Of a stretch of 64,000 nt of DNA, positions 8,537-64,000 are shown one piece after another. A model generated the notes under the pieces. That model was not told the DNA's origin. It did not search any database and worked only from the letters and a program-made list of their open reading frames with translations. The translations under genes were made by a program, and so were the position numbers. How positions within the stretch are numbered: position 1 is the stretch's first letter; each line of letters opens with the position of its first letter. Source of the stretch: Lineus longissimus. Taxonomy: Eukaryota; Nemertea; Pilidiophora; Heteronemertea; Lineidae. The stretch spans positions 1,984,001 to 2,048,000 of the forward strand of contig NC_088322.1 in NCBI RefSeq assembly GCF_910592395.1. The letters run 5' to 3'.

Positions 8537-8563
8537 CGAGATATGCTCTCAGGACAAAGTCCG
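8537..8563 (-). repeat. DHE copy 1 (in M1 polymerase)
   Basis: 27-bp double hairpin in the inverted orientation, flanked by ACT on both sides. One stem-2 base is mismatched (GAGA against GCTC). Read through in the polymerase frame as ICSQDKVRL. Confidence 0.85.
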
Positions 8564-8566
8564 ACT

Positions 8567-8593
8567 AGGACAAAGTCCCGAGAGCATAGCTCG
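8567..8593 (+). repeat. DHE copy 2 (in M1 polymerase)
   Basis: Adjacent to copy 1 in the opposite orientation, sharing the ACT between them and followed by another ACT. It starts with A instead of C and has spacer CGA. Read as GQSPESIAR. Confidence 0.88.
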
Positions 8594-8760
8594 ACTTAAC
8601 ATGAATGTTATTAGTAAAGAGCAGATTATGGCAATTCCAAGTGACAGTGAAGTAGGCTACTTCTTAGAGGTGGATTTGGAGTATCCAGGAAATATTAAAT
8701 TTAAGTCAAGGAACTTTCCATTCTGTCCCGAATCTTTCTTTATTGAAGATGATGAATTAA

Positions 8761-8820
8761 GTGTCAGTCCATGATACCACCATGCAGGATCATGCAAATG
8801 GTGGCAAGGTGGGGGGTCAA
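8761..8820 (+). repeat. Left TIR of the TTAA transposon
   Basis: Matches the reverse complement of 12913-12965, apart from an extra block of about 12 bp (near 8789-8800) in this copy. Confidence 0.88.
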
Positions 8821-9567
8821 CAGATCTAGTTGTAATTTCTACCACAGACCTGTCCTAGGGTACTATGAAGGCTGGTGGATTGGTTTCGAAAATAACCCCA
8901 CAGTTTTGGGGTACGGCTGTTAACCATTTCCTACTCATTTTCCTTTTAAAAAAACATGCATTATCCCTCAAAATAGGCTAAGTCTTTTGTCAATTTTCGT
9001 GCATCAAACAGAATTATCACTAAACACCGCCTATTGAAATTGAAAGTACATGATCTGAGCTACCTTTTCATGCCTTTTGTTTTGCCCCAGGTACATTTTA
9101 ATGACAGGTACAGTACGTACCAAAAACAATGCAATCTCAAATTTCAGTAAAAAGGCAATTTTAACTCTCCTTTAGCTCCAACACTGCAGTTTTTTAGGTG
9201 ATGCCACTTCCAGGTAAGGGAGTCAGAATGCTGTTTTTTAATTTGCAAAAGAAAAAAATCCGGCCGCCCTTACGGTTTTCCGGTGAGGGGGTCGAGTCGC
9301 GCCCTTCTCACTGGTGCCCATTTTTTGCCCATTCCCTCAGAAAACTGACGAAATACACATGCTTTCCAAATAAAATTACATTTTTAGATGTTAGTGAACC
9401 CCCCTCTCCCTTGCCCCTCCCACACACTCCCTCAAACAACCTATTACCCCTGTGGAGGCTTAGCGGTCTTGGCGGAAACGATCACCAGCAACGACAACAA
9501 CAACAACAGTTACAGTTACAATGCATTGTGTACATGCACGTGTACATTGTGTGATAGTCAATTGAAA

Positions 9568-10716
9568 ATGGAACCTGAAAAATCACAGTTGAAATGTGGA
9601 TTTGCTGTCATATCCAAGGATATCGAGTGTGGTACTTACGCTTCATACCCCAATGACAAGAGTGTGATCCCCTTGAAACAATGTAAGAAGGACGTGCACT
9701 CCCATTTGATGCGTTGGATGTCCTCCAGGAAAGCCAGTCAAGTCAAAAGTGAATGGGAGCTCATAGCACTTCGTGCTGGCGTGTTTGATATGAGTTCTCC
9801 AGTTCTGGACACCACAATATGCCCGAACCACCGATACAAGTTGAGTTTATCATGGAATCAGCAAAGGAGATGCCAGCACCCACTTCATCAACCCTCTAAA
9901 ACAAGTCGGAAGCCCAGAAAAGATGGTGGTTCAGTTCATCGAGTGATGTCTCGGGAAATATACATCAAGTGGGGAGTTTTTGTCCCAGTTGGCTCAGGTA
10001 AGGGATCAGTCTCAAAATCACTGAAGTAGAAAAGAAGCAGTAGGCCTGTAATGATACCCACTCTGACTAAACCTAACTTTGGTGCAAAACCAACTGAGTG
10101 ATAACGATTTACCACTTCACTTGTGTTCTTCCTAGAAAGTTGATTGGAGCCTTGGCTTGGTGATCAGGAAGTCCCAGTTATGATTCCCTGCCAGTGCCAC
10201 TGGAGGTGATGCTTCACTGCCGTACAAAATCAGCATGGCCGGTCGCATTATCAAAACAAGTCTATCATCATCATCATGTCCTCACACTATTATATTGCAC
10301 ATCATATTATCATTACCCCCATAATCTGGTGCCTTTTCAGCTCTGTGTAAAGGATGTGAGGCTAAACATCGAGTATCTGTGGCAAATGTAGAACCAGAAG
10401 TAGAACCAGCACCCATGGATACAGAGGTGAGTTGAATGAAAAAAAAGGGGAGAAGATTCGGGGCAAGCCAAAGTGAATATTGGTTAATTCTGCCTGCAGC
10501 GACTGACTTGCATGTAAGAAGGTCACTGATGAGAGAGGAGGGACTAAGCTGAAAACCTTGATGCCGTTCTGGCTCCCATCTCCTTGGCAATGAGGGATTC
10601 TAAGCCAAACCTGATTCTCCATCAATATCTTTTTTCAGTCCGCTGTTGCCTCTTCCTCTGTTCAACCAGCCGACGCCTTAGAAAACCCAGCAGACGGGAC
10701 AGAAGGGCAAATTTGA
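9568..10716 (+). CDS. Three-exon zinc-binding protein of the TTAA transposon
   Basis: Exon 1 is about 9568-9997 (donor GTAAGG), exon 2 is 10341-10426 (acceptor TTTTCAG, donor GTGAGT) and exon 3 is 10639-10716 (acceptor TTTTTTCAG, ending TGA). All phases agree. The protein of about 197 residues holds a Cys/His cluster (CPNHRYKLSLSW, RRCQHPLH) in exon 1 and LCKGCEAKHR at the start of exon 2, which looks like a split zinc-binding domain. The same C-P-x-H-R plus C-x-H-P pattern, as I recall it, occurs in unnamed invertebrate transposon-linked proteins. The start is uncertain: the frame is open back to 9388 and includes more cysteines. It may be a truncated transposase N-terminus or an accessory DNA-binding protein. 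Confidence 0.6.
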
Positions 10717-12912
10717 TGGGTAGTGTTGTTGCAACAGTATCATAAGGACTGCTGGTCAAGCACTCTTGAGCTGGGAGAGAGAAATGATAAGAGGGTGGAG
10801 ACAGATTTTCTGAAATGTTGGTCTTTGAGTCATGACTGGGCAGAATTAGCCCAGTGAAAGTTGTCAGCTACACATCAAGAATTCTTGATTTAGAATGAAA
10901 GGGTACAACTTTATTGGATGTACATTCATCAGGCTTGACCTGAGATTTTCCACGCCATTGATTGCAAATGCATTGTTCGCATTCTGCAATACATCTCTCT
11001 TTTTCTAAAAAAAATACATGGTGAATTTCCTAAAACTGTTACATAGTGTGTTTTTGTCTCCCTTGACTAACATAACCTGCAATATGAAGGACATCCAGAT
11101 TTGATGTTCTAGTATATCTAGCGGATGGTTCATCAGGTAAAATGCGGGGCTTGGTTAAAAAATGATTTTATAGCGATATCTTGGGATAAATTTGAACTTT
11201 GGCTTTCAGTAAACAATTGTAAATGCCAAGATAGATTTTTAATGTCAGTATACTTAGTAGCGCTAATGTCAGTTTTGAACAACCAAGCCTGCTACTGGAA
11301 AGTGGGACTCTCTCCTGATACTATCCTGCACTTGGGCCTGACATGTAGTACCGTAAATGAGGTGTTACTAGTATTGGTCCCTCCCTAGTAGTGGTTAGTA
11401 GTGGTTTGGCTATTGTCTGCAAAATAGCCTTTTTTCTATGTATCATTATATTAGCTTGTAAATAAATCACCCATTTGTAAAAAAAAAAGTGTCCCTGCTT
11501 CTTAGGTGGCAGCACTGTCCTCTGCAGACAGGTACAAGTGTAGCATGTGGAAAGTTGTGATCTCTCCTAAGGGACTGGACAGTACCGTAACTCAGTTCAT
11601 GAAAAACTTCTCCATTCCAGTACATGTATATGTACAATTTAGCCAATGCTAGAGCAACTCCAGGAGAACATTTCACCGCCAACCAAGGAGCTAAAAACTT
11701 CCAATAGCAGTACTCTGACGGTGCAGCCAACTGCAGGGTTGTCCTCATCAAACAGTAATTACAGTAGGAACTGCACCTTTGGTCAATTGGCTCCTTAGCA
11801 ATGGAAGGTGTTACTAGTATGTGAAATGAGCACTTCTGCAAGGTTCTTAGGAACAGGATGATCCCTGCATGGGTTGATAAAGATGTATTAGTAGGTCATA
11901 CCACATGCCCTTCAGGTGCCTTAGCCATGGGGGGGTCCAACCCTTACAACATGCTCTGGCAGCATGACACAGGCTAATGAATGGGTCAACATTAGCATCC
12001 TCACCAACAGGGGGGTTTCTTAAGGTTTTCGGACTGTAAGAAGGCCTACATGTAGCTTATTCAATTACGTTGCCATCAGGTAGGCCAAGGCCGAAATGTT
12101 ATTTGAAATTCAAATCAGCATTTCAGGACCTATGGGGCCCAATTCTCCAAAGTGCTTTCATCAAGGGCAAATTTGTAGTGATGAGCTTGTTCTTTTTTTG
12201 GGGGAAAAATGCAAGTGGAGTTATTTACCGGTAGGCCTACTTAAATAAGTTAAAATAGGTTAGTAGGCCTAGGCATGGGGGGGGGGGTGATCATGGTGGT
12301 TGACAGTAACTACTAATCCTCATGGCCAGCACCAAGCATAAATTATGTGTTCATTATGCATTTATTTTATAATTCATCAAGTGTACACAAGGTGGCAGCA
12401 CTAGCCAATGAGTGTCATTTTGGTGGAAAATAGCACTTTTTCCTTGGTTTATCCTGGGAAAACAGTAAAAGCGGCCGGAAATTTTATTTCTGATTTTGAA
12501 AGTAGGTATCATTACCTTTATCATGTGCAAGCCACAGCATTCAAAGACCTGCAGTGTTGGAGATATGAGCGTCGATAGAGAGCTCTTCCTAAGCACTGCC
12601 CCTAGGTATGCATAATTACTAGGCCTAGCACGACCAAAGTATGAAGTGTTACTCAATGACCTGTTGCAGAATGGAAGATCTCATCAAATACTTCCATCAT
12701 ACAAAGGGGGAAAATCCAGCTATTTTTTTTAGTCTCTGCAGGAGTGCCCAACATTGACCCAAAAATACACAAAAAAATAGGGGGAAAAAAGCTAAAACAA
12801 GCCCCCTAACTAGGCCTGCCCCTAACTCGGTTGCTAGTGATTTTTGAGAGTCATCAATTGCTGTGTAATGATGTCTTAGTGGAATGATCTTGCATACCTA
12901 ATCTCGTTAAAA

Positions 12913-12965
12913 ACGGTTGACCCCCACCTTGCCACCCTCTGCATGGTGGTATCATGGACTGACAC
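12913..12965 (-). repeat. Right TIR of the TTAA transposon
   Basis: Inverted partner of 8761-8820, ending GGACTGACAC directly against TTAA (12966-12969). Confidence 0.88.
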
Positions 12966-14054
12966 TTAAGTCCTTACCAGAGAGAGTTACTGGGCGATGA
13001 TAAAAGATCAAATGTAGAAAAACTAATACTAACACAAATGGATAAAACTAATTACATAGTGCATTACAGAATGCCACAATTTTACCTCAAGCACGGAATG
13101 GTACTTAAGAGGGTTCATTCGGTGATATGTTTTAAACAATCAAAGTGGTTAGCACCATACATTGATTTTAATACTAAAAGACGTATGGATTCTAAGACTG
13201 ATTTTGAGAAAGACTATTTCAAGCTCATGAATAATGCTTTCTACGGAAAGACTTGTGAGAATGTAAGGAACAGGGTGGAAATAGAATTGGTAACGGACGG
13301 GGAGAGAGCCAGGAGTGTAATGGCCAATCCCAGGTTTTCATCGATATGCGTATTTGATGAACAGAATGCTGCTATTAGCATGAGGAAAACATCAATGAAA
13401 TTCAACAAACCAATCTACATAGGAGCTTCAGTACTTGAATTGTCTAAATTATTAATGTATGAATTCTATTATGAAGTTCTTCAACCGTACTTTGGTGAGA
13501 AAAATATTGAACTACTGTATCTAGATACAGATTCCTTTGTACTTAACATTAATACTGATGACTTAACTCGAGCTATGCTCTCAAGACGAAGTCTGACTAA
13601 AGACTTAAAGGAGTTGAAACACTATTTTGACTTCAGTAATTATCCAAAAGATCATCCACTCTATGACACCAGTAAGAAGAAGGTGCCAGGTTATTTCAAG
13701 GATGAGTTAGGAGGAGTCGAGATGACTGAATTCATTGCCCTTAGAAGTAAGATGTATGCTTACAGGACAAAAGATTACGATTCTAAGAAATTAAAGGGTA
13801 TTGCCAAGAATGTAGTAAAGAGAGATATCTCATTTGATGACTATGTTAATTGTCTTGAAAAGAGTATGTCATTTTACCACAAGATGAGACACTTAAGATC
13901 AGATAAACACCAAATCTATTTGGAAGAAGTTGACAAAAAAAGCCTCAGTCCTTTTGATGATAAGAGGTTCATACTTGAAGATGGAATAAGAACGTTACCA
14001 TTTGGAATGTATTATGAAGGCTACATAGATTACAGCGATTCAAACTTCGCTTGA
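12966..14054 (+). CDS. POLB: M1 DNA polymerase B, motifs B and C (fragment 3)
   Basis: The polymerase resumes directly after the transposon. Motif B is KLMNNAFYGKTCENV and the catalytic motif C is LYLDTDSFVLN. The C-terminal region typical of protein-primed polymerases follows (YFKDELGG, RSKMYAYR) to a TGA at 14052-14054. The frame is the same as that of the piece ending at 8760 once the insert and one TTAA are disregarded. One DHE (13569-13595) sits in frame a few residues after motif C. Another (14057) begins just after the stop. Apart from these, the palm and thumb segments look intact. Confidence 0.92.
   Translation, partial: LSPYQRELLGDDKRSNVEKLILTQMDKTNYIVHYRMPQFYLKHGMVLKRVHSVICFKQSKWLAPYIDFNTKRRMDSKTDFEKDYFKLMNNAFYGKTCENVRNRVEIELVTDGERARSVMANPRFSSICVFDEQNAAISMRKTSMKFNKPIYIGASVLELSKLLMYEFYYEVLQPYFGEKNIELLYLDTDSFVLNINTDDLTRAMLSRRSLTKDLKELKHYFDFSNYPKDHPLYDTSKKKVPGYFKDELGGVEMTEFIALRSKMYAYRTKDYDSKKLKGIAKNVVKRDISFDDYVNCLEKSMSFYHKMRHLRSDKHQIYLEEVDKKSLSPFDDKRFILEDGIRTLPFGMYYEGYIDYSDSNFA
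13569..13595 (-). repeat. DHE copy 3 (in M1 polymerase)
   Basis: Flanked by ACT/ACT. Stem 1 is AGAC/GTCT, a compensated change from GGAC/GTCC. Translated as RAMLSRRSL about ten residues after the DTDS motif. Confidence 0.9.
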
Positions 14055-14056
14055 GT

Positions 14057-14083
14057 CGGACTTTGTCCTGAGAGCATAGCTCG
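14057..14083 (+). repeat. DHE copy 4 (just after M1 polymerase stop)
   Basis: Flanked by AGT/AGT. The left AGT starts with the last base of the polymerase TGA stop, so this copy lies in the 3' untranslated region. Confidence 0.9.
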
Positions 14084-14098: not shown

Positions 14099-14338
14099 TT
14101 AAACTAATGAATATGGTGGCGCTGATGGTAGTGGCACTGGCGGAAATTCACCCCTAACACCGAAGTCATGGTGATAGTGATAGTGATACACCACATTAGG
14201 ATTAGGACTATTTAGTCGAACTTTGTTCTCGGGAATTTGTCCTAGTCGGACTTTGTCCTGAGAGCATAGCTCGAGTCCTGTTTGATTTACTGTGACTTCA
14301 GTTTTTCTAGCATCTCTGTCTGAGCTATCTTTTTTCAT
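14099..14338 (-). CDS. Small M1 ORF carrying two DHEs
   Basis: A 79-residue frame whose ATG overlaps the stop of the upstream gene (14335-14946) as ATGA. It begins MKKDSSDRDARKTEVTVNQT, then passes through two DHEs (ELCSQDKVRL and GQIPENKVRL). It ends in a His/Tyr- and Pro-rich tail (HYHYHHD, PPVPLPSAPP). I do not recognise it. The overlap with its neighbour and the preserved frame across two inserts suggest it is or was coding, but it is short and could be a chance frame. Confidence 0.4.
   Translation of the reverse strand: MKKDSSDRDARKTEVTVNQTGLELCSQDKVRLGQIPENKVRLNSPNPNVVYHYHYHHDFGVRGEFPPVPLPSAPPYSLV
14217..14243 (-). repeat. DHE copy 5 (diverged)
   Basis: Flanked by AGT/AGT. Stem 2 reads GAAC/GTTC, a compensated change from GAGC/GCTC. 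One mismatch is present in stem 1. It shares the A-start and CGA spacer with copy 2, suggesting a subfamily. Confidence 0.8.
14247..14273 (+). repeat. DHE copy 6
   Basis: Canonical copy in tandem with copy 5 in opposite orientation. AGT flanks both sides and the middle AGT is shared. Confidence 0.9.
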
Positions 14339-15284: not shown

Positions 15285-16127
15285 TTAATTGAGTAGAAGG
15301 ATATCGTTAAATTCTGGGTTATCCCAAAAATACTTGTTTGTTATCCTTCTCCACTCGTTTATCACGTTCTGGTCTCGATAGTCAAACCAGTTTTCATTAC
15401 GCTTATTGACCATAAAGTTAAATGAGCGGCACAATTGATCCTTAAATAGTGTGTAGTCTACTGTAGCACTCTTCTGCCTGTTTTGTGTTTTAGACATTGG
15501 TCGAATGTTAAACCAAGCAAAGCACAGTTCAGGTTTATCTTTGAATTCCTGGATTGGTAAGACATGATCCAACTCCTCATCTACTATTGGAGATAGACTC
15601 CTCTGGTACTCTAACCACTGTGAGAAGAAACTGTCTGTACATCCTAGATTGAATGATGAATTACCAGTCAGACTTCGTCTTGAGAGCATAGCTCGAGTCG
15701 GACTTCGTCCTGAGGGCAGAGCTCGAGTACACTCTCCCTTAGAAATGCGGTTAAAACCAACCCTAATTTTGTGTCTGTCTCTATTACCATTTTGGTCAAG
15801 GTAATCCTTTTTGTAATATGATTTAAAACATGATCTACAGTTACCTCTATTTCCATCTTTACCGAATTCACCATCACTTAGTAATTTAACTTCTCCACAT
15901 TTACCGCATTTCTTGGTTAACGTGGAACCACATAATTTACTGTAATCAAGTAGTTTATTACGTCTGTTCTTTCCAAATTCACTTTCAAGTTTTGTTACAT
16001 CGCACTTAACACATTTAAATGTAGGCCCTGAAACTACTGGTTGATACTGATTAACAGGATACTGATTAACAGGATACTGATAAACATTGACAGTACCATA
16101 GTTAACGTTAAATATCTGTCCTTCCAT
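15285..16127 (-). CDS. M1 HNH-like zinc protein
   Basis: 280 residues. A Tyr/Gln-rich N-terminus (NQYPVNQYQP) is followed by zinc-binding pairs (CVKCDVTKLESEF, KKCGKCGEVK, NCRSCFKSYYKKDYL). A C-terminal HNH-nuclease-like region follows (LDHVLPIQEF and CFAWFNIRPMSKTQNRQKS). The DH...N pattern resembles HNH endonucleases of large DNA viruses and Mavericks, so cleavage of DNA is inferred. Two tandem DHEs (15669-15725) add 20 residues in frame between the Cys-rich part and the HNH part. The frame is otherwise intact. It lies between the integrase and the membrane-protein genes on the same strand. Confidence 0.6.
   Translation of the reverse strand: MEGQIFNVNYGTVNVYQYPVNQYPVNQYQPVVSGPTFKCVKCDVTKLESEFGKNRRNKLLDYSKLCGSTLTKKCGKCGEVKLLSDGEFGKDGNRGNCRSCFKSYYKKDYLDQNGNRDRHKIRVGFNRISKGECTRALPSGRSPTRAMLSRRSLTGNSSFNLGCTDSFFSQWLEYQRSLSPIVDEELDHVLPIQEFKDKPELCFAWFNIRPMSKTQNRQKSATVDYTLFKDQLCRSFNFMVNKRNENWFDYRDQNVINEWRRITNKYFWDNPEFNDILLLN
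15669..15695 (+). repeat. DHE copy 7 (in HNH-like gene)
   Basis: Flanked by AGT/AGT. Stem 1 is AGAC/GTCT (compensated). In the minus-strand gene it encodes RAMLSRRSL. Confidence 0.9.
15699..15725 (+). repeat. DHE copy 8 (in HNH-like gene)
   Basis: Direct tandem of copy 7 sharing the AGT spacer and followed by AGT. Stem 2 GGGC/GCTC has a G-T wobble. In the gene it encodes RALPSGRSP. Confidence 0.9.
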
Positions 16128-16202
16128 TTCTAGCTTGATTTAAAGGATAAAAAGTTTAAATTATGTTTTTTTTAGTCTTTTAGGCTTTTAGACTTTTAGG
16201 AT

Positions 16203-17371
16203 TTAGACTTTTAGGCTTTTTATTCCTGAAATTGGTAACCATTCATTGAATTCATCACTGTATCCCTTCCACTTCACTAATCCGTATTTTTTACCTTTAC
16301 TGGTCTTGTACCTCAAGATTTTCTCTATCTTGTACTCTAGCTGGTCAGGATTAGGAACATAACTCAATTCCTCTTCATAGAAATATCCTTGAATTTCCTC
16401 TTTATGATAATCTTCAAGTTTGTAGACGATAGGGTGAGTGAAGATGATCTGTTTGATTTGGAATACTTCCTCAGTGAAGTTGGGCATGTAACCTTTACCG
16501 AAAATGGACTTGTACTTTGAAATTCTTACACTGTCACCTACTTTGTACTTTGGATCACCAAAGGTTTCTTTGAGGTGAAGACCGTAAAGATTGCACCACA
16601 CAGCTCCTTCGTTTTCCATCTTTCTGGCGTCTACAGGTTTCATACCTATTGATGAGTGAAATGTGTTGTTGTAGCCACTGACCAAGTCATCCAGTACGTC
16701 GATCCACTTGTCTGTCTCCTTAGCAGTGAAATAACGCCACATTTTTTCTTTAAGAGTCCTGTTGAATCTTTCTACTACCGCTGCCTTCTTATCAGATTTT
16801 GTAGAGAACCATTCTTTGTCATTTTCTGTTAAGAGTTCCTTGAAGTGTTTGTTGTAGAATTTTGTACCGTCATCAAACTGGATCTTTTCTGGTATTGCCA
16901 CAACTGGTTTTGCTTCTCTAGAGCTTTGCTCCTTGGACGAAGTCCTGAATATCACTTTAAATGCATCTCTGATTTCTTCTCCCCTCTTACTCTTAACGGC
17001 CATAGCCCAAGCATAGCGACTGAATAGGTCAATTACTGTTAAAATGAATCTGAAACCTTTATTCGGACTTTGTCCTGAGAGCATAGCTCGATTCTTACTC
17101 TCGAATTTCTGCATGTCAACCAGGTCGGCTTGCCACTGTTGATCGATGTACGATACCATTGTTTTCCTGAAGGTGAATTTCTTAATAGCCGGTTTGTGTA
17201 GTTGGTGAGTTGGTAGTGTTTCTAGAAATTCTTTAACTTCTTTTGTTTAATAAGTTTACCATCTTCCTTGACCTGTTTCCACATCTTACTCAAAGAACTG
17301 TAAGCCACGGGACTATCGGGGTTGTAGTACAAATCCCTTAGATACTGCTGTGTGTCATCCTTTACATCCAT
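16203..17371 (-). CDS. INT: M1 retroviral-type integrase with chromodomain, one frameshift
   Basis: The N-terminal segment begins at ATG 17371 (MDVKDDTQQYLRDLYY). A one-base shift near 17240 leads into the main frame. The rve core has D in QADLVDM, D in IQFDDGTKF and E in AAVVERFNRTLK, with about 33 residues between the last two. A C-terminal chromodomain ends the protein (KYGLVKWKGYSDEFNEWLP). It would insert the linear element, giving 6-bp duplications in this family. Two DHEs sit in the core: 17064-17090 (RAMLSGQSP) between the first catalytic D and the next strand, and a decayed one at 16920-16946. The start lies only 4 bp from the divergent ATPase gene. Confidence 0.9.
16920..16946 (-). 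repeat. DHE copy 9 (decayed, in integrase)
   Basis: Both stems are intact (GAGC/GCTC and GGAC/GTCC), with loops TTT and GAA. The outer pair is A/T, the spacer is CTT, and the flanking triplets differ (TCT and GAA). It encodes extra residues (around TSSKEQSS) before the second catalytic strand. Confidence 0.65.
17064..17090 (+). repeat. DHE copy 10 (in integrase, ATT duplication)
   Basis: Canonical copy flanked by ATT on both sides. This shows that the flanking triplet is a target duplication and not part of the element. Confidence 0.92.
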
Positions 17372-17375: not shown

Positions 17376-17996
17376 ATGGGTGAAGTATTTATTTACGAGC
17401 CACATAACATGCTAATTTCTGGTGTCACCAATTGTGGTAAGACATATTTTGCCCTTGACCTCTTAGAAAAGGAGTATCGACACAAATTCCAAAACATAGT
17501 CATTTTCTGTCCAACATATTTCAACAATAAGACATATGACAGGAAATGGATTTACCAAGACAAGAGTGTCTACATAGTTAATCCCGAAGCGGTGGCCAGT
17601 AATTTGGACCTTGTGCTTCAATTTGCTACTCTGACCTTTGCTGGTTCTAACACATTATTCCTAATTGATGACTGTGTTAATTTGAGAGACACAAAAAAGA
17701 AGGTGTCCGAGTTATGTAATCTTGCCTTTTCTGGCAGGCACTACAATCTTACTGTTTGGTTACTAGTTCAGAAGTACAATTCAGTTGTCAAGGACTACAG
17801 AGAGAACATAAGAATTTTAGTATTATTTTTTAATAAAGATGAATCAGCCATGAAAGATGCCTTAGAAGAAAACAGTGTTATTCCTAAGGAGAAAAGACAG
17901 TACTACATAGAAGAACTTAAGATGAAAAAAGGATCAAAACTGATCATTAGACTACAACATCCATTTGGATTTACTCTTTCACATCAAAAATCTTAG
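17376..17996 (+). CDS. ATP: M1 genome-packaging ATPase (A32/FtsK-HerA type)
   Basis: 206 residues. The Walker A motif is ISGVTNCGKTYF near residue 18 and Walker B is TLFLIDDCVN near residue 97. An arginine- and Gln-containing sensor region follows (SGRHYNLTVWLLVQK). This is the size and layout of Maverick and virophage packaging ATPases, which pump DNA into capsids. The ATG at 17376 is 4 bp from the integrase start on the other strand, leaving almost no promoter space. The stop overlaps the 3' end of the next convergent gene (17993). There is no DHE and no lesion. Confidence 0.9.
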   Translation: MGEVFIYEPHNMLISGVTNCGKTYFALDLLEKEYRHKFQNIVIFCPTYFNNKTYDRKWIYQDKSVYIVNPEAVASNLDLVLQFATLTFAGSNTLFLIDDCVNLRDTKKKVSELCNLAFSGRHYNLTVWLLVQKYNSVVKDYRENIRILVLFFNKDESAMKDALEENSVIPKEKRQYYIEELKMKKGSKLIIRLQHPFGFTLSHQKS

Positions 17997-18473: not shown

Positions 18474-19250
18474 TCAATGATGTGTCGGACTTTGTCCTGA
18501 GAGCAGAGCTCGAGTTAATACCAATTGGTACTGTACATCATGACCATTAAGATCGATGATGTCACCTTTTTCATCCGTTAAGCGAATATTCAGCTTATTG
18601 AATCTTGGTTTACAGGGAATTGCTATTGGTTTCTCAAAGGTGTATGCTATTAAATCCCCAAAATTAGCTTATTTTATTGGTCTTGTGGTTAGCACATCAG
18701 ATGTTTCACCATTACTTAATACACTATTAGATTCGATTATGTCACAGTGAAAAACAAAATGGTTAATTGGTCTAAAATTGATGGGTTTCTCGCTTACAAC
18801 ATCATCTTTACTTTTATTGTCTGAAGGGTAAGGCCATTCTGTTTTCATGCCAAATAACTCATTGCTTTTACCAATAAAATAGATCTGATAATGCGCCTCA
18901 TTTTTTCTCTTTAGGAAGTGTAAGATGGCCTTACCTGTTGGTTCTTCAAGGTCAAATCTGACAGCACCTCGACGCATACTATTTTCTTTCAACTTATCTG
19001 CAAATACTTTTGAAAAGCTCTGTAGGTCATAGAGACCATCTGGTAGCGTAATCTCTGCCACATCAAACCCCTTAACTTTGATTCGGTTATTCTCCCTGGC
19101 CGCACTGATGTTGTAAAATGTACAAGGTATTACTGCAAAAGTTAAAGTGATGCTACATGCATCTTGAATTTCAGTCTTGAGATTGACTGTTAAATCACTT
19201 GAACTCTGATCCGGGTAGTCGCTGGAATCGATGTTCATTACAGTTACCAT
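18474..19250 (-). pseudogene. M1 probable penton (minor capsid) protein with in-frame stop
   Basis: From ATG 19250 the frame runs 193 codons (VMNIDSSDYPDQSSSDLTV, ITLTFAVIPCTFYNIS, LYDLQSFSKVFADKL) to a TAA at 18669-18671. The same frame then continues for another 65 codons (AYTFEKPIAIP, NIRLTDEKGDIIDLNGHDV) to a TGA at 18474-18476. Length, beta-rich composition and position beside the capsid gene fit the single-jelly-roll penton of Mavericks; this is by context and not by a clear motif. The last residues before the final stop are encoded by a DHE (18486-18512). Confidence 0.6.
18486..18512 (+). repeat. DHE copy 11 (C-terminus of penton gene)
   Basis: Canonical stems with loops TTT and AGA. 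Flanks are TGT and AGT (two of three bases match). It encodes RALLSGQSP four codons before the stop. Confidence 0.88.
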
Positions 19251-19607: not shown

Positions 19608-20852
19608 TTAAGCAATCTGAGAAATCTGGAGGTTTACCTGGGCATCAGAAACCACGAATATGTGCATTTTGTATGGTCCCTTTCCAGATTTCTTTGTAAT
19701 AGATAATTGAATACCATCTTTTGTGTTCTGGAGCTTCTTTCCTGATCCGTGTAGACGATTGTCTTCAGAAGTTCTCAGGTCCAACCATAAACCATAGTGA
19801 TTAGAATCACCATAGTATTTCTCCATTGTCATGTTACAGACATGAGTTTTCTTCAAATCTTCAGACATGAAGTGTTTCTTGATCTCCTCCCATTGATCCA
19901 TCATTCTCATTCCTTCTGGGAACACCTGATTGGCAACACCCTCAATTGTGATTTGTACTTTACTTATGTTAGGGTTTTCAAACTTCTCTGAATCTCTAGC
20001 TCCATCTACATAGTCAGACACAAATAATAACAATAATCCTTTAATTGACATTCTTGGAAAGTTGATGTTCTCATTAATCAGTGTTTCATTAGCAGTAACA
20101 TTAACTGTTTTAAAATGGTCTACCCAATCATAAAATATCGAGAAACCAGAGTTGTATTTGTTGCTCAGTTGATTTGCAATCATCTTATTAGTAACTGTGT
20201 CGTATTCAAAACTGATATTTTCAAGTTTGTAGCCCATACTAGCTGTGGTTGTGGTGACTATGATTTCCTCCTTTGGTGCTAAAGTTATTTCAATAATCAC
20301 ATCTTCTTGAGTTGGAAACTTGTAAAATGGAGCATGATGGTGAAATAATTCAAAATCTAATGGTATTTTGTACTTCTTATCAAACACTTCCTTTAGTGTC
20401 TTTTCATTAGCTGTTTCACCAGTGACATCAGCTTCAGCTACTCCCGATCTTAATTCTCTAAGATTTTCTGATTGAATACCTTGAAAAACTCTATAATTTC
20501 TTTCTTCTCCAGTTAGCCACAGATCTTTAAATGTAGAAAAATGGCTGTATTCGTCAAGGTCAAATATCTGCTCTGTTCCCCACTTAACCACCATCTTTGA
20601 GATTAGATTTCTACCAAGATTATTTACAACACTATTTTTAGAATCACCAGAAATGGTTACATCAGCAGACAAATAAAGAGACATGGGTACAAAAAATGTA
20701 TTCTCTCTCAGTGCCGGTATTCTAACATACAAAGTTTCTTTGGGATTAGCAGAAGAGGGATTATGAGTAATGATGTGATGCTGCCTCTCAGCTTTCAAAC
20801 AGAGTGGAATTCTATGTGATCTATCTGTATTTAATAAATATCCAGTGGCCAT
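19608..20852 (-). CDS. MCP: M1 major capsid protein (double jelly-roll)
   Basis: From ATG 20852 (MATGYLLNTDRSHRIPL) about 414 residues. The pattern ENTFFVPMSLYLSADVTI, then LGRNLISKMVVKWG and FSTFKDLWLTGEER, matches the N-terminal jelly roll of Maverick capsid proteins. The second half holds FYDWVDHFKTVNV, YGLWLDLRTSEDNRLHG and a final MHIFVVSDAQVNLQIS strand. It would form the icosahedral shell. An upstream in-frame ATG (20918) adds a leucine-rich stretch that is less likely to be real. The frame is intact and carries no DHE. It is the last gene before the M1 terminus. Confidence 0.85.
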   Translation of the reverse strand: MATGYLLNTDRSHRIPLCLKAERQHHIITHNPSSANPKETLYVRIPALRENTFFVPMSLYLSADVTISGDSKNSVVNNLGRNLISKMVVKWGTEQIFDLDEYSHFSTFKDLWLTGEERNYRVFQGIQSENLRELRSGVAEADVTGETANEKTLKEVFDKKYKIPLDFELFHHHAPFYKFPTQEDVIIEITLAPKEEIIVTTTTASMGYKLENISFEYDTVTNKMIANQLSNKYNSGFSIFYDWVDHFKTVNVTANETLINENINFPRMSIKGLLLLFVSDYVDGARDSEKFENPNISKVQITIEGVANQVFPEGMRMMDQWEEIKKHFMSEDLKKTHVCNMTMEKYYGDSNHYGLWLDLRTSEDNRLHGSGKKLQNTKDGIQLSITKKSGKGPYKMHIFVVSDAQVNLQISQIA

Positions 20853-22088
20853 CTTGTATTTATTTACTCGTAAAATTAATAATAGTTCCAAGAGCAGGCC
20901 TCTAAAAAACACTTGCATTGACTACCAGTAGTTCAAAATTCCCGGCCATGACGTCATCACCTAGCTCACATATCATTAGGGAAAGCACTTGGAGATCTGA
21001 CATTTCGCCATACCAGCTAGCGAGACTTTTACAATGTTGTTTTTGCCTGTTTTACCGGCCAATAATGCTTCGATGCTTACATTTCTGCTCTTAATAGCTT
21101 GTAGAGAATATTCCTAAAATATTAATCTGCGTGTCTAGTAGTTACGCTTGGCTTAACACGCTAAATATCCCGGTTTCAACTTGTAAACAAAACCGCGTCA
21201 ATATGGCCGTGTTACCGTGGTTGCATTTTGCATTAAAACAACGCTATTACTCGCTGTAATTGCATGATTGAAAAGTTATTAGTTCACCTAAAATGTGTAG
21301 ATTAAGAGACAGGCCATTGGCAAACTTTATCTTAACATAAAACGCTATTTTCTGTGATGTAAACAACGCCATGCATTCTTCTGCGTACTGACGGACCAGT
21401 CCACTTTTCTAGAGGTGTGTTGGCTTGATCATGCACATACACCCTAGGTGGCATGCAGTCAATACGTGTCAAGCCAACTCTATGCCAAGGCCTTTGATTG
21501 GCTGCCAACGTGTAACGATTTGATTGGCTGCATACAAGCCTTAATTAACATACATACACGTTATTACCCATAATTCCTGTCATCTTAGCAACGGACATGC
21601 GCAAACGATCACAGTTTTGTTTTGATAGCAACGGGCAAACCAGTGTTTGCTCGTTGTACAATGACAACAATCTCAACTTCCTTGGCAACCGTCATTACCC
21701 ATAATTCCTGTCATGTTCATTACCCATAATTCCTGTCATCTTAGCAACGGACAATGTTTTGATAGCAACGGGCAAACCAGTGTTTGCTCGTTGTACAATG
21801 ACAACAAATCTCAACAGGAAGTTGTCATCCTTGGCAACCGATTGTCAGCGACATCTTTCATTGTAACATGTAACTAAACAACAAGCTTGGCATAGGCCAG
21901 TTTTCATATGTTGCCTTCACCGGGAAACGAACCTACGCCAACACATAACCTCATGTGTGGAAGCTCCATGCTTTACACACTCGGCTATTGAACTTTCAAC
22001 CAGACCAACGACATTTATGCCTATTTAACAGTAACATATGTTTAAGGTAACACCTGTTTAACATTAATTACGTCAGTGCTGCCATCTG
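20853..22088. other. Non-coding M1 end region
   Basis: About 1.2 kb between the capsid gene and the TIR with no supported gene. It holds an imperfect tandem duplication (21562-21840). It also holds an inverted pair (GTTGGCTTGA near 21419 and its complement near 21467). M3 lacks such a spacer: there the first gene starts just after the TIR. Confidence 0.6.
21562..21840. repeat. Tandem duplication of about 140 bp
   Basis: Two imperfect copies begin TTACCCATAATTCCTGTCAT (from about 21566 and 21720), with a third partial start near 21694. Both continue through AACGGGCAAACCAGTGTTTG to TTGGCAACCG. Confidence 0.85.
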
Positions 22089-43942: not shown

Positions 43943-44211
43943 TGGAAGTTTATGTGGTTTGTACGACGGAATTTTTCGGCCGTTCCTGTATATGAATATT
44001 CGGTGCATTATCTGCGGATATCGGTCTGAGCTGATTGGTGAAATTAACACACTGAAGTGTGATTCACAACTTTTGTGGCATGCGATATAAAATGACGACA
44101 CGGCACTTTGTCATGAAGTTGTCAATTTCTCTCTGGTCGAGTCTTCGTGGCCATCCTAGGCCTATAAAAATGAGGTCGATGGCCATTTCCATCTCAGTTT
44201 GTCCGTCAAAT

Positions 44212-47301: not shown

Positions 47302-49379
47302 ATGGCACCCGTCCAGTCAAGACTTCTATTTGCTCTGGCAGCTGGTTCAGCTGTTGCTGCAATGGCTGCAGCTGTGGCATACCACAAGATGAAGCGTCGC
47401 CGTACTAAAAGAACTGTATGGGTCAGAAAATGGATCCAGAGGAGAAAAACAAGGGGATCGTATGCCATGCTAGTAGATGAGTTGCGACTAGAGGATCCAG
47501 GATCATACAAGAATTATTTGAGGATGGATGAGGAGACGTTTGAGCACCTAGTTCAACTGGTGACGCCTTACGTGGCAAGGGAAGACACCAACATGCGCGA
47601 GGCAATTACTCCAGCAGAACGTCTGGCGGTTACTCTAAGGTTCCTAGCCACTGGGGAAACTTTCCAGAGTCTTCAGTTTTCAACACGGCTGAGTCGCTCA
47701 ACAATCGGTGCAATAATACCAGAAACGTGCTGTGCAATCTACGAAACCTTAAAGATGGATTATATCAAGGTACGTCCAAACTATCTCTTTCGAGATAATC
47801 AGATTTTCATTTGTCACATTTTCTGGAATTGAAATACAAACGAAGGAAATTGTAGGAAGATCATGTATTATTTTCTTATGTATGTTGTTGACTACAAGTG
47901 TACAACATTCTAATGATTCGAGAATGCTTCATACATAGCCTGACTTACAATATCACTTGTACCTGAACCTGTATTTTGGCCGAGTGGAACTGTGGAAAAC
48001 CGGGGAGTGACCATGTCATTACGAAATTGACAGGAAGGTCGAACTGCATTCTCAACAGACAGTGGAAAGACAGTTTCAGACGGAGGCTGTGCCTGATAGC
48101 TGCGATTTTTCACATTAACATAATTCCTCTTGGTGTTCAAATCAGCCTCCTGTCCGTCAAGCAAAGCTAAGCTGATCTTTCTTTTTACATTCTGTCGTAC
48201 ATCTGGAGATTCGATTGCACGAATCTCTGAGGCTACATACTTCCCAAACACATCATATACATCATTCGCTTCTGTTGGCGGAGGCCTATTTGATGCGAGT
48301 GCAGCATCTTTTAATTCCGCCAGAGTGTTGGTGGCCGTCTGAAACATTGACACTTCCGCTGAAACCGATTTTGATGATTTCCTTTTCGGATTCCATGAAG
48401 ACACCTTAGCAGCGATCTTGGAGGTCGATGGTTGCGTATCTACATGTATCACTTTGTCCGATTCATCCTCGGATACTTCGTCGTCATCAGACAGATCCTG
48501 AAAAAACAAAGATATCATGTGGTCACTCATTCGTGAAATAAATGTCTATCTTTTCAGGTGCCGTCGAACGAACAAGAATGGCTCAAGGTTGCAGAGGAAT
48601 TTGAAACAAAGTGGAACCTTCCCCACTGTTTGGGTGCAATGGACGGAAAACACGTTGTTTTCCGCCCACCATTGCGCTATGGCTCCTATTTCTACAACTA
48701 TAAAGGCACCCATAGTATTGTTCTGTTTGCATTGGTTGATGCCGACTACAAGTTCTTGATGATTGATGCTGGAACCAACGGTCGTGTCGGAGATGGAGGT
48801 GTTTTCAGGAAGAGCGATCTCAATAACGCTATGGCGGATGGGACTATACATTTTCCTGAGGCAAAACCCTTACACGATTGCGATGCCACCATGCCCTATT
48901 TTTTCGTAGCAGATGATGCTTTTCCTTTACAAACTGACATCATGAAGCCGTATCCATTTAGAAATCTTGATAAAGACAAACGTGTTTTCAACTACCGCCT
49001 GAGTCGGGCTAGGCGTGTGGTTGAAAATGCATTTGGGATATTAGCTAACAGATTTCGCGTGTTTCTTGCTCCTATTCTGCTATCCCCTGAGAAAGTGCAG
49101 ATGATCATTCTGGCTGCTTGTGCACTGCACAACTTCCTGAGGGTCCATAATTCGGCCAAGTACTTCCCTCCCAGGGCAGTAGATAGGGAACAATTAAACC
49201 GCGGTGTTGTAGCTAAGGGGGATTGGAGATCAGTTAAGAAAGCTGAGGAGGCTTTCCAAGGTATTGAACATCAGTCTGGAAACCGTTATGCCAATGATGC
49301 ACAATCACAAAGAGATGCTCTGCGCGGCTATGTGAATGGCATCGGACGAGTAGCATGGCAGGACAGATTTTGCAGCTAA
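47302..49379 (+). CDS. PIF/Harbinger DDE transposase, two exons
   Basis: Exon 1 is 47302-47769 (ATG in MAPVQSRLLF; donor GTACGT after MDYIK). Exon 2 is 48558-49379 (acceptor TTTTCAG, then VPSNEQEW). The phases match. Exon 1 holds the HTH-like region (YLRMDEETFEHLVQLV, FQSLQFSTRLSRSTIG). Exon 2 holds the DDE_4-type core: HCLGAMDGKHVVF (first D), FFVADDAFPLQTDIMKPYP (second D) and RARRVVENAFGILANRFRVF (E). About 430 residues with no stops. In this superfamily the transposase is recruited to DNA by the Myb/MADF partner, which is encoded antisense and interleaved with it. It may be functional. Confidence 0.9.
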
Positions 49380-58066: not shown

Positions 58067-58074
58067 GTACATGA

Positions 58075-59103: not shown

Positions 59104-59146
59104 ATCATTCATGAGATTCCCAGTGAAGCGTTGCAATGAAATGGTG

Positions 59147-59240: not shown

Positions 59241-59244
59241 TTAA

Positions 59245-60636
59245 ATGTATTATCCAATAGCAAATCAACATAAAAGTAAATTCACCTATGACTTCTTTAA
59301 TTTAGAAGTAACTGTTAATACTAACAATTTCTTCAGGTTACAAGAAACTAAGATAACACCTGGGTTTTTGAGCCTGAAAAATAAGAAAGACTGTCTGCGA
59401 CTGGAAAAGAATCCATTATCGTTTTACCAGAACCAATTTAACATGGCTGTTTGGTTTGCTACAACAGGTTGTGGTATTTCAATAGACGATCACTTGAATC
59501 ACAGTGACCCATTGATAAGGTCAATTTACAGGTTTCATGTTTACTATCAAATATTGAAGATCATGAAGAATCTAGAGATACCAATTCCAGGTGAAAGTGA
59601 TTTTAATGAGACAAACAATAACATTAACCGTAGGAAACTAGGAGGGTTATTGAGTGAATTTGGTTTAAAAGACGAGTACGATTTCTCGGTGTTTGAAAAT
59701 AACGGTGGTTGGAGGTCATGGAGTGTACCGGATTACAACCCGAACATAACTGATCCCGGATATTACATCAATGATTCTAAAATCAATTTCTTCCTCATGC
59801 AAGTTCATAAAAATAGAATGCCACCGATGTTCAGTAAAGACTGGGATGCTGGAATGGCTAATTTCAAATATCCTGATACTTTCATTAAGTATCATGTGAA
59901 ACAACACAAGAATGTATTTGATGTAATTACACAAAATGAATGTCAAACCTATCAACAATTCATGATATTTAAATCAAATGGTTTCTCTAATCCTGGAATA
60001 GAGAGGTTGAATGACACAATAAGAACATATGTTTACTGTATTCTGGGTGCTCAGGCGTTGACCAGAACACCAATAATTGGAGTACCGGGTACAGAATTGG
60101 ATGCTCAGAAGGAATTTAACAAACTATTAAAGGACTCGATTAATCAACATCCTGATATTCCCACTTCAATTCAAAGATACCAAAAAGCAGTGAGTGACAC
60201 TCATACAAGACTAGATTATGTAATAGCACCAGGATTGTATGTCATAGGATCAAATATGGTACTCGTTATTGGTAAGCTGGATAACTACAATAATAACATT
60301 TTAATAGCACCAAAAAATGCTAAACCCGGTAAGAATGACATTAACCACAAAAAGACCTTACCACCACCACTGATGGAAGGAAATAGTTCTAAGAAAATAA
60401 GAGTTAAGAGTAGCGTTGGTACTGTCAAGACGGACTTCGTCCTGAGAGCAGAGCTCGAGACCAGTCATAAACCAAAGAGTAATGTTGAAACACCAAAAAC
60501 AACTGAAACCTCAAAGAATACTCCTACAACTACTAAACTTGACACCAAAGTTGAGAAGGTGGATGATACTCATGAAACAATTAAATTCATGCTTTACTCA
60601 GTTGTTGGTACATTGATTGTTTTTATGGTTAGATAA
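59245..60636 (+). CDS. M3 large conserved-type protein with C-terminal membrane anchor
   Basis: 463 residues. It has a long globular part with Asn- and aromatic-rich stretches (NNGGWRSWSVPDYNP, FDVITQNECQTYQQFMIF, GIERLNDTIRTYVYCILGAQ), then a Lys/Thr/Pro-rich linker. A single C-terminal hydrophobic helix ends the protein (FMLYSVVGTLIVFMV). The IRTYVY..LGAQ block recalls an unnamed Maverick gene in other invertebrates. A virion membrane or entry-vertex role is only inference. One DHE (60431-60457) sits in the linker, read as DFVLRAELE. The start is 4 bp after the TIR. The next gene begins 4 bp after its stop. Confidence 0.6.
   Translation: MYYPIANQHKSKFTYDFFNLEVTVNTNNFFRLQETKITPGFLSLKNKKDCLRLEKNPLSFYQNQFNMAVWFATTGCGISIDDHLNHSDPLIRSIYRFHVYYQILKIMKNLEIPIPGESDFNETNNNINRRKLGGLLSEFGLKDEYDFSVFENNGGWRSWSVPDYNPNITDPGYYINDSKINFFLMQVHKNRMPPMFSKDWDAGMANFKYPDTFIKYHVKQHKNVFDVITQNECQTYQQFMIFKSNGFSNPGIERLNDTIRTYVYCILGAQALTRTPIIGVPGTELDAQKEFNKLLKDSINQHPDIPTSIQRYQKAVSDTHTRLDYVIAPGLYVIGSNMVLVIGKLDNYNNNILIAPKNAKPGKNDINHKKTLPPPLMEGNSSKKIRVKSSVGTVKTDFVLRAELETSHKPKSNVETPKTTETSKNTPTTTKLDTKVEKVDDTHETIKFMLYSVVGTLIVFMVR
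60431..60457 (+). repeat. DHE copy 12 (AGA duplication)
   Basis: Canonical stems with loops TTC and AGA, flanked by AGA on both sides. In frame in the linker of the 463-residue protein. Confidence 0.92.
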
Positions 60637-60640
60637 ATAA

Positions 60641-62236: not shown

Positions 62237-62374
62237 GTGACATTCTATCAAAACAATGTTTAAAAAATAATTATTATGTAAATAGAAGTGAATAGGATGA
62301 TTTCATTAAAAGACTATTTTAGTAAATCTAGCAATGAAAATCTTACTGGATTCCTTCGTCCTAGGGTTATGGAT

Positions 62375-62401
62375 CGAGCTATGCTCTCAGGACTGCGTCC
62401 G
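62375..62401 (-). repeat. DHE copy 13
   Basis: Stems canonical, with loops TAT and TGC. Flanks GAT and ACT differ. Read as RAMLSGLRP in the zinc-ribbon gene. Confidence 0.88.
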
Positions 62402-62458
62402 ACTGGAAATTCTACATTCAATAAAAAAGATGACAGTGGAGAAGATGATACGCCTACT

Positions 62459-62485
62459 CGAGCTATGCTCTCAAGACGAAGTCTG
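62459..62485 (-). repeat. DHE copy 14
   Basis: Flanked by ACT/ACT. Identical over its 27 bp to copy 3 in the M1 polymerase, with compensated stem 1 AGAC/GTCT. Read as RAMLSRRSL. Confidence 0.92.
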
Positions 62486-63404
62486 ACTGAGACAGGCAAA
62501 GATGAAAACAACTTTCTTGTGCACAGCTCTGCTGTTACTACCAAAGGTATGCCAAAAATGAAAGAGTATGACACCAGTACCATCGCCAAAGCGGAATTAT
62601 GTAGAAATTGTAAAAGGTGGACCCTTTTTGAGTATCAAAAAAACTTGAATTCAGCAAGGTACGCAGCTAAAACTGTCAGGTATCAATTCTGCACCAATTG
62701 CAATTCGACTACTTACGACGATGATTTTAAAACTCTTGAGATCAATATTGACAACAAGACACGTTACTTTGACAGTATTCTAAGGAAACTTGGATGGATG
62801 CGGCTGTCCGAATCGGCAGTTAAGTATTTAAAGGACTTTGTGGAATGGTATTTGCAGGGTTACTTTTCAAGTTCCAGAAAATGCCTCAGTAAGCAGAGAT
62901 ATATAAGTACTCTTCAGTCAGCCCTAAAAATGGGTATTAACACTCTCCCCTCTAAGGTATGTAACCAAGGGTTACATGGTGAAGCCATGCTTTTTAAATT
63001 TCACTGTGGGGAATGTTTCTTGCAATAGAATTTATTAACAGGGCAATTGGTAAACCCCAATTAACAGATGAGAATATCACTGACCTTAGACTAGTTTACT
63101 TTGCCTTCCTAAGATTTCTGCATTACTGTGGTGTCAAGGTCACCATTAACTACAAGGTATTTTTACACCAAGCCTTTAAAACGCTGAAAATTGATTATGT
63201 AATATTTACACCTTTTTTAACCAACAAGGAGCGAGTTAATGATTTGGAGAGATTATGGTATGATTTCACTCAAAGTATTTTCTTCCAAAATTACAAATTT
63301 GAGAAGGTATATGACCAGGATATTGACAAGCAGTTTGACGTTTTATTGAGTGCTAGTGCAGGTCGAGACAATAACTGCATCAGTAGTATTAAGTTTACAC
63401 CAGC

Positions 63405-63431
63405 CGGACTTCGTCCTGAGAGCATAGCTCG
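63405..63431 (+). repeat. DHE copy 15 (AGC duplication)
   Basis: First unit of a perfect tandem pair. AGC lies before, between and after the units. Read as GLRPESIAR. Confidence 0.93.
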
Positions 63432-63434
63432 AGC

Positions 63435-63461
63435 CGGACTTCGTCCTGAGAGCATAGCTCG
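63435..63461 (+). repeat. DHE copy 16 (AGC duplication)
   Basis: Second unit, identical to copy 15 over 27 bp and sharing the central AGC. Confidence 0.93.
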
Positions 63462-63534
63462 AGCTAGTGTTAAGATGCAATAAAGTTGTGAAAACAGCAT
63501 TTTGCACTTAACAGTCATTTTTCCATAATTTTAA

Positions 63535-64000
63535 ATGAATAATCAGCAAATGAACAGTCAGACATCTGCAGCGATTGAACAGCAAATGAAACAGATTGGT
63601 GTTATCATTCCAAACCCAGTCGGACACAGTCCTGAGAGCTTAGCTCGAGTTGGGGCTTCTAACCCACAGAACACTGGTAGTTACCAACAGAACAGAACTA
63701 ACTTTCAACAGAACTGCACTACAAATCAACAAGTTTCAAACAAGCAGTTGAATAGTTCAAATTTAGTTACTCCTAGTCAGGGAATAGTTAATCCCAGTCA
63801 GGGAATAGTCAATTCTAGCAATCAACTAGGCTCAACTCGAGCTACGCTCGCAGGACAAAGTCCGACTAGCAATCAACTAGGATCAACTAGCAATCAACAT
63901 AATTTGAACTATTTGACTGATAGTGGCCTTGAAGCCAAACAAGACTTAGAGATTCTAGTTGCAACTGGTAAAATCAAGGATTTCCTTAATAAACAAAAAC
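63535..64000 (+). CDS. M3 Asn/Gln-rich protein, open at window end
   Basis: From ATG 63535 (MNNQQMNSQTSAAIEQQMKQ) the frame is open for 155 codons to the window edge. It is Asn/Gln/Ser-rich, with short internal repeats (PSQGIVN twice; SNQLGS twice) and a more globular end (SGLEAKQDLEILVATGKIKD). Two DHEs lie in frame in different reading phases: 63621-63647 (GHSPESLAR) and 63838-63864 (RATLAGQSP). Composition resembles the Gln/Asn-rich N-terminus of the M1 HNH-like protein, but I cannot assign a family. Confidence 0.6.
   Translation, partial: MNNQQMNSQTSAAIEQQMKQIGVIIPNPVGHSPESLARVGASNPQNTGSYQQNRTNFQQNCTTNQQVSNKQLNSSNLVTPSQGIVNPSQGIVNSSNQLGSTRATLAGQSPTSNQLGSTSNQHNLNYLTDSGLEAKQDLEILVATGKIKDFLNKQK
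63621..63647 (+). repeat. DHE copy 17
   Basis: Flanked by AGT/AGT. Loops ACA and TTA differ from all other copies while both stems are perfect. Confidence 0.92.
63838..63864 (-). repeat. DHE copy 18
   Basis: Flanked by ACT/ACT, spacer GCA, loop TAC. It sits within a local repeat of SNQLGS-coding sequence. Confidence 0.9.

Follow-up and report, generated by a model that had tools for sequence, protein, structure and literature searches.

A 27-bp double-hairpin element, probably mobile, in Maverick DNA of the nemertean Lineus longissimus

INTRODUCTION

Elements made of two hairpins, with stems that are kept and loops that vary, are known from fungal mitochondria as double-hairpin elements and as GC clusters (GC42). 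Here, we describe an element that is likened to them by description, found in a 64,000-nucleotide stretch of the Lineus longissimus genome (contig NC_088322.1, positions 1,984,001 to 2,048,000; hereafter, the window) and in further stretches of that genome carrying Maverick DNA. GC42 is 42 bp long, mitochondrial, and mostly intergenic, whereas the worm element has 27 bp plus a 3-bp repeat, lies in Maverick DNA, and is mostly found in genes. Yeast mitochondrial GC clusters are flanked by AG or ACT (PMC4478555).

Several other systems share single traits with the worm element. Palindromic repeats have likewise invaded eukaryotic DNA viruses, namely, the M1 and M2 repeats of pithoviruses and the submariner miniature inverted-repeat transposable elements (MITEs) of pandoraviruses; for the pithovirus repeats, putative target duplications are reported, and no transposase in pithovirus annotations (PMC10664404). 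Those repeats measure about 140 nt, occupy non-coding DNA, and have a dinucleotide duplication; the worm element, in the Maverick of an animal, has 27 bp and a 3-bp repeat and lies mostly in coding DNA. Rickettsia palindromic elements also sit in frame within many unrelated genes (PMC10969869) but are bacterial and about 150 bp long, and the hairpin elements of sponge mitochondria also invade an animal genome, although a mitochondrial one and between its genes (PMC2800124). PARCEL repeats are coding, show dyad symmetry, and are thought to be mobile; they are 25-residue tandem domains of microbes, whereas the worm element adds 10 residues and is read in several frames (PMC2996958). Very short hairpin pairs act as a mobile unit in the REPINs (PMC3116915), and bacterial small dispersed repeats of about 20 bp might be mobile (PMC2884548). 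REPs are extragenic and bacterial, and REPINs accompany RAYT transposases. We know of no target duplication made by REPINs.

In the literature searched (open-licence full texts), no such element has been reported from Mavericks. We read the worm sequence as a mobile DNA element, non-coding and non-autonomous, whose 27 bp form two hairpins and which inserts into Maverick DNA with a 3-bp repeat, and we put the probability of this reading at about 0.72.

RESULTS

A 27-bp unit in two Maverick parts of the window

The pattern C-GGAC-nnn-GTCC-TGA-GAGC-nnn-GCTC-G occurs in 18 copies in the window, on both strands (Table 1). A scan with this pattern recovered, at or near the positions first reported for them, the copies of a preliminary description of this DNA and bears out their shared two-stem architecture, the 27-bp core (18 of 18 copies), the mostly kept 4-bp stems with variable loops, and the presence of both orientations. 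Mismatches to the fixed letters number none in nine copies, one in three, two in four, and five in two (the degenerate copies at 14217 and 16920). Ten first-order Markov shuffles of the window contained nothing below five mismatches (one match at five, four at six), so chance can be rejected as the source of the 18 copies. Two other candidates were discarded: 21748, which has 6 mismatches and forms 5 of 9 pairs, and 15699 read in reverse as a separate copy.

All 18 copies fall within two Maverick parts of the window, at about 7 to 22 kb (M1) and 59 to 64 kb (M3). Fourteen lie inside seven long reading frames, fewer than the at least eight genes first counted: DNA polymerase B (polB) holds three, the endonuclease VII-like frame and the integrase hold two each, and four frames in M3 hold one, two, two, and two. 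The remaining four (14057, 14217, 14247, and 18486) have no frame of 60 residues or lie in frames of 90 or 64. Copies in tandem are spaced at exactly 30 bases (27 + 3); this period and the 3-bp direct repeat at the copy ends are additions to the preliminary description.

Filled and empty sites

That the segments are insertions, as was first proposed, is seen when orthologous genes with and without them are compared at the same site: the relatives compared for the integrase, polB, and endonuclease VII-like genes are without exactly 10 or 20 residues, and an empty counterpart exists at 22 of 35 site groups within the worm genome. In the integrase, the 10-residue insert at 17064 is missing in 25 of 25 aligned relatives (chosen from 120 listed of 3,917 found), all of which have Asn at the place where the worm's repeated triplet encodes Asn; two of the 25 are Bartonella-labelled and are 87% and 83% identical. 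In polB, the insert at 13569 is missing in 18 of 18 aligned relatives (chosen from 120 listed of 3,083 found). For the endonuclease VII-like gene, one Bartonella-labelled relative (E 3.1) was compared by eye and is without precisely the 20 residues that the tandem pair contributes. Among the part of the relatives compared, Mavericks of other hosts thus do not carry the same peptide at homologous positions. A protein search with the peptide region for the element's peptide elsewhere returned one protein, the empty-site E 3.1 relative just described, and among 240 listed homologues the element's peptide patterns occur in a single carrier, an integrase of Lineus longissimus itself (P0002), at a different position of the integrase. 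A scan of IMG/VR with the exact element pattern gave 0 matches, and one for integrase relatives gave 15 pattern matches, none of them confirmed.

The Bartonella-labelled records form an observation of their own. Five of them (P0001, P0039, P0121, P0125, and P0241, from the Bartonella sp. CLxxQHWL records) resemble proteins of Mavericks (integrase, polB, and endonuclease VII-like); identity to the window is 83 to 95% for the first four, and all five are element-free in the parts seen. They probably stem from rodent Bartonella assemblies contaminated with DNA of a Maverick-carrying animal.

Comparisons within the genome cover an enlarged set that consists of the window and 12 ten-kilobase stretches around copy clusters, each of which matches Maverick genes of the window. 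The set yields 192 copies (up to 4 mismatches from the commonest letters, a limit that misses old copies) at 144 occupied places in 35 site groups, although the grouping splits some likely single sites (15 and 31, with common flanks, and 20 and 27). Among Maverick stretches, the distance between flanks equals 30n − 3 (−3, 27, 57, 87, 117, or 207) in 807 of 919 comparisons, which overlap and are not independent; 263 of these 807 are empty sites (distance −3). Such distances imply an element of 27 bp together with a repeat of 3 bp. Of the 22 site groups with an empty counterpart, 21 have flanks at least 88% identical and one has flanks only 72% identical. At one site, a copy is present in stretch L012 and absent in L019, which differ at 8 of 2,000 flanking bases (99.6% identity), and movement is therefore recent on the scale of Maverick duplication. 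Copy number at a site varies as well: L016:6055-6261 holds seven tandem copies at exactly 30 bp, where other stretches hold one to four or none.

The first integrase site was also followed genome-wide, with a result in agreement, by match length (gap positions not displayed), in 40 long matches, the window's own included, out of 473 candidates: 22 keep the insert, 16 are without 30 bases there (of which one lacks 31, and three lack 57, i.e., 30 + 27), and 2 are shorter by 45. At two sites, different element variants occupy the same place with 200 identical flanking bases (13569 of the window versus L017:4789; L017:2873 versus L011:6279), which may reflect re-insertion or exchange between copies. 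Over 87 same-site pairs, the per-base difference is 2.3% in elements versus 1.0% in flanks.

Target triplets and reading frames

The triplets that flank a copy are equal in 15 of the 18 window copies, mostly as AGT, and empty sites show an overlap of exactly 3 nt, as expected of target-site duplication. At the 21 sites with an empty counterpart, the triplet starts with A in 20 (background, 31%; P = 8e-10) and reads ANT in 13, and a pyrimidine stands two bases before it in 20 (a regularity noticed after the fact). Orientation is free, with 97 copies one way and 95 the other in the 192-copy set. Among 17 sites suited to closer comparison (single copies with good empty relatives), 13 show a copy whose triplets on both sides equal the empty site. 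Most of the differences from the empty site amount to a single base (GGT/AGT, ACC/ACA at two sites, ACT/ACC, AGC/AGT, and AAT/AAA) and could be due to mutation.

Every insertion adds a multiple of three bases. Because 30 is such a multiple and four of the six frames are open in the commonest form of the element, insertions in genes are usually tolerated as 10-residue additions. A clear gene frame, called from the flanks alone (150 or more open codons, and 1.3 times as many as in the next-best frame), was available for 150 of the 192 copies, and 141 of these 150 are free of stops in it (orthologous copies in this and the following counts are not independent). Where the TGA spacer would block the frame, 12 of 12 copies (4 sites) carry CGA, AGA, or GGA instead, against TGA in 151 of 192 overall; where an ATA loop would block it, 21 of 22 copies (5 sites) carry another loop, ATA being present in 83 of 192 overall. 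This pattern fits selection on working genes or the insertion of forms already suited to the frame.

Covariation of the two hairpins

Both hairpins covary. A set of 64 distinct copies shows pairing of the two 4-bp stems in 95.7% of cells (91.8% when shuffled), with 18 double changes versus 2.5 in shuffles, and none of 500 shuffles reached the observed pairing, double-change count, or covariation score; related copies can beat shuffles without structure, but sliding the partners removes most of the signal. Stem pairs with a double change number 4, versus 1.8 shuffled, with 14 of 500 shuffles as high. Loop variants are often each other's reverse complement (TTT/AAA and AGA/TCT), as though single hairpins flip. 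One long end-to-end hairpin showed no covariation above shuffles. The ends of the element pair in 64.8% of cells versus 21 to 41% when slid, possibly a consequence of the resemblance between its two palindromic halves. The outer pair does not count among the kept stems: described at first as C/G or A/T, it is indeed C-G in 147 of 192 copies, but the A variants have A opposite G (30 copies) and not A-T.

Genome-wide distribution

The exact pattern occurs 1,496 times in the genome (391,118,348 bases in 30 contigs scanned), compared with 0 for a reversed-pattern control. Among 100 exact copies listed, 89 lie on scaffold C1 and 11 on C2; all 89 on C1 fall into nine clusters spanning 0.43% of the scaffold, without singletons, and Maverick genes are present in each of the nine (one or more stretches sampled per cluster). 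Twelve arbitrary stretches of host DNA on C1 to C3 (120 kb) contain no copy within 6 mismatches, and the 44 kb of the window outside its Maverick parts contain none within 5. In the part examined (the C1 clusters, the C1 to C3 host stretches, and the window), the element is confined to Mavericks. The copies adjoin Maverick genes on scaffolds of 16 to 29 Mb and are not in mitochondrial DNA.

The left end without the right half occurs at 44 places in the genome, versus 1 in the control. Eight of the 44 were fetched: three carry polB sequence, and five match Maverick stretches at 68 to 77% DNA identity; we read these eight as half or decayed copies. The preliminary description had assigned the element to one Maverick lineage. 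All window copies do lie in Maverick DNA; a single lineage may be too narrow, given the 1,496 copies and the half-copies in Maverick-like DNA of only 68 to 77% identity to the stretches studied.

Maverick genes and other features of the window

Hallmarks of Maverick/Polinton elements in M1 are an rve integrase with chromodomain, DNA_pol_B_2, and a Pox_A32 ATPase, with a capsid match only below its cut-off (Table 1); M3 was recognized by frames in common with other Maverick stretches. In M1, about 4.2 kb (8774 to 12963) separate the polB N part from the C part. A structure model of the integrase has a mean pLDDT (model confidence score) of 68.6, and its insert, from residue 51, lies in a stretch of pLDDT of about 54 before a strand; we give the model little weight.

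Beside M1, at 247 to 6193, are frames that encode domains of retroelements (zinc knuckle, PNMA-like gag, reverse transcriptase, RNase H, and integrase), which we take to be Gypsy-like. Transposase frames in the host part are Mutator-like (24771 to 26522), DDE_1 with a Tc5-type binding domain (44056 to 45564), and DDE_Tnp_4 (48537 to 49379). Repeats of the window include an exact 72-bp direct repeat (7071 to 7142 and 7200 to 7271, 129 bp apart), a 164-bp tandem pair (39237 to 39564), and large nested inverted repeats (31757 to 33186).

Table 1. Maverick genes of M1 and all element copies, by position in the window (paired triplets are those flanking a copy)
Feature	Position	Strand	Domain, form, or triplets	Remarks
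M1 DNA polymerase B, N part	7803..8774	+	DNA_pol_B_2	
M1 DNA polymerase B, C part	12963..14054	+	No Pfam match	Relatives named DNA-directed DNA polymerase
Endonuclease VII-like frame	15285..16139	-	phrog_1035, E 5.1e-11; no Pfam match	Two tandem copies inside
Integrase (rve) with chromodomain	16203..17246	-		Two copies inside
Packaging ATPase (Pox_A32-like)	17376..17996	+		Copy-free
Possible major capsid protein	19608..20921	-	Capsid_N match under its cut-off	Copy-free
Copy	8537..8563	-	AGT/AGT	In polB N part
Copy	8567..8593	+	ACT/ACT; hairpin 1 flipped (loop AAA)	Abuts the 8537 copy
Copy	13569..13595	-	AGT/AGT; compensated stem AGAC/GTCT	polB C part; site empty in 8 other Maverick stretches
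Copy	14057..14083	+	AGT/AGT	Directly past polB reading frame
Copy	14217..14243	-	ACT/ACT; degenerate (5 mismatches)	
Copy	14247..14273	+	AGT/AGT	
Copy, tandem, first of two (30-bp period)	15669..15695	+	AGT/AGT	Endonuclease VII-like frame
Copy, tandem, second of two	15699..15725	+	AGT/AGT	Endonuclease VII-like frame
Copy	16920..16946	-	TTC/AGA (unequal); degenerate (5 mismatches)	Integrase; by length, 27-base net insertion versus relatives
Copy	17064..17090	+	ATT/ATT	Integrase
Copy	18486..18512	+	TGT/AGT	No long reading frame
Copy	60431..60457	+	AGA/AGA	M3 frame 59245-60636
Copy	62375..62401	-	AGT/ATC (unequal)	Frame 62282-63028
Copy	62459..62485	-	AGT/AGT; compensated stem AGAC/GTCT	Frame 62282-63028
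Copy, tandem, first of two	63405..63431	+	AGC/AGC	Other Maverick stretches: 1, 2, 3, 4, or 7 tandem copies, one empty
Copy, tandem, second of two	63435..63461	+	AGC/AGC	
Copy	63621..63647	+	AGT/AGT	Frame 63535-63999
Copy	63838..63864	-	AGT/AGT	Frame 63535-63999; site empty in 2 other Maverick stretches

DISCUSSION

The 3-bp repeat, the exact ends, the free orientation, and the target preference together point to DNA insertion into a 3-base staggered break or to a 3-base strand exchange. A mobile double-hairpin element would enter at a short preferred target, roughly pyrimidine-N-A-N-T, and leave a 3-bp repeat, such that each insertion would add 30 bp, or 30n in tandem runs; within genes, most insertions would be tolerated as 10-residue additions, and copies with a stop in the gene frame are scarce. 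Movement would take place at the DNA level, by an activity that is presumably supplied in trans and tied to the replication or repair of Maverick DNA, because the adjoining host DNA is untouched; this activity may be present where Maverick DNA replicates, or it may be Maverick-encoded. Endonuclease VII family enzymes cut branched DNA and cruciforms, and the Maverick's endonuclease VII-like nuclease is a candidate mover, though only a candidate. The rve integrase of the Maverick is an unlikely one, since duplications of 6 bp are ascribed to the rve integrases of polinton-like viruses (PMC12220804).

Several observations weigh against an insertion element of this kind. Flanking triplets are equal in only 128 of the 192 copies, part of the rest lying in compound arrays or being truncated. 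Seven of the 17 closely compared sites have one or more copies in which a flanking side departs from the empty sequence (some sites show both kinds); ACC stands on an ACA target at two sites, and AGT/ATC on an ATC target requires two changes. One copy, L014:6393-6419, is opened at the other (TGA) spacer with its hairpins permuted, a GAGTC spacer lying inside and TCA repeated outside. Furthermore, a transposase would have to act on a substrate of 27 bp, which is very short, and no partner element was found in the left-end search (8 of 44 matches fetched, all Maverick-matching). As regards structure, the number of further pair types does not exceed that in shuffles (91 of 500 reach it), and DNA of a single copy folded clearly better than shuffles in only one of four cases tested, as a single long hairpin. 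Lastly, orthologous copies are not independent.

The unequal triplets and the permuted copy leave room for a strand-exchange mechanism beside a plain transposase. Under strand exchange or template switching during Maverick replication, a 30-nt unit (27 plus a carried triplet) would be transferred through an overlap of about 3 nt between donor and target; the triplet would be partly donor-derived and not a simple target duplication, and tandem arrays would record several rounds of copying. Such a process would account for triplets that match the empty site on one side and read AGT, ACT, AGC, or ACC on the other, for the doubly changed ATC target, for the permuted copy, and for arrays of up to seven copies at exactly 30 bp. 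It sits less well with the 13 sites at which both sides equal the empty site (ATT, AGC, and AGA targets included), with the target preference, with the single base that separates most non-matching triplets, and with the chance that sites 15 and 31 are one, and we regard it as unlikely, if worth keeping in view. A more specific proposal along these lines is doubtful in our eyes: the element could be a 30-nt double-hairpin parasite of an animal virus-like element that moves by three-base strand exchange and brings a coupling triplet along from its donor, perhaps in the form of a tiny circle or dumbbell; the Maverick's own endonuclease VII-like enzyme would both excise and insert it. If true, it would be a hyperparasite without coding capacity, perhaps the smallest mobile element in animals.

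A strict MITE, meaning a derivative that arose by deletion and is moved by the transposase of some ordinary DNA transposon of the host with 3-bp duplications, would explain the 3-bp repeat, the two orientations, and the target preference, and the pairing of the element's ends, together with one variant that folds end to end, agrees with it. The absence of copies from 120 kb of host DNA and 44 kb of non-Maverick window makes such an origin improbable, as does end pairing without covariation; a host transposon with the same left end is likewise unsupported, the left-end matches examined (8 of the 44) all being Maverick-like. We consider it very improbable that the element spreads through RNA, with transcribed hairpins being reverse-transcribed and then inserted: RNA-mediated movement is discussed for the yeast GC clusters (PMC4478555) and is reported, in the paper on sponge elements, as suggested for Allomyces (PMC2800124), but exact ends, a 3-bp repeat, and a target preference argue otherwise in the worm, where the nearby retroelement domains of the window show no link to the copies. 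Finally, tandem peptides such as AGLRPESIARAGLRPESIAR in one frame might be taken for a conserved protein feature or a simple expansion of a peptide repeat. A conserved feature is rejected by the empty counterparts, which occur in three genes and at 22 sites, and with copies in different genes, on both strands, in several reading frames, and outside genes, we give this explanation almost no credence.

A mobile double-hairpin or palindromic element is a known kind of sequence; what sets this one apart is its new location in Mavericks, its very small size, and its presence mostly in coding DNA. To our knowledge, mobile elements of animals are rarely as short as 27 bp. The worm sequences indicate that a 27-bp unit can behave as a mobile element in animal DNA, where it may rank among the smallest. 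It is confined to a virus-like element, as far as examined, and would be tolerated inside core genes because its size is frame-neutral. In Lineus longissimus, more than a thousand exact copies can be compared, some empty sites have flanks that are nearly identical, the target preference is clear, and the linked candidate enzymes are few; this makes it testable what moves double-hairpin elements, which have long been known from mitochondria.

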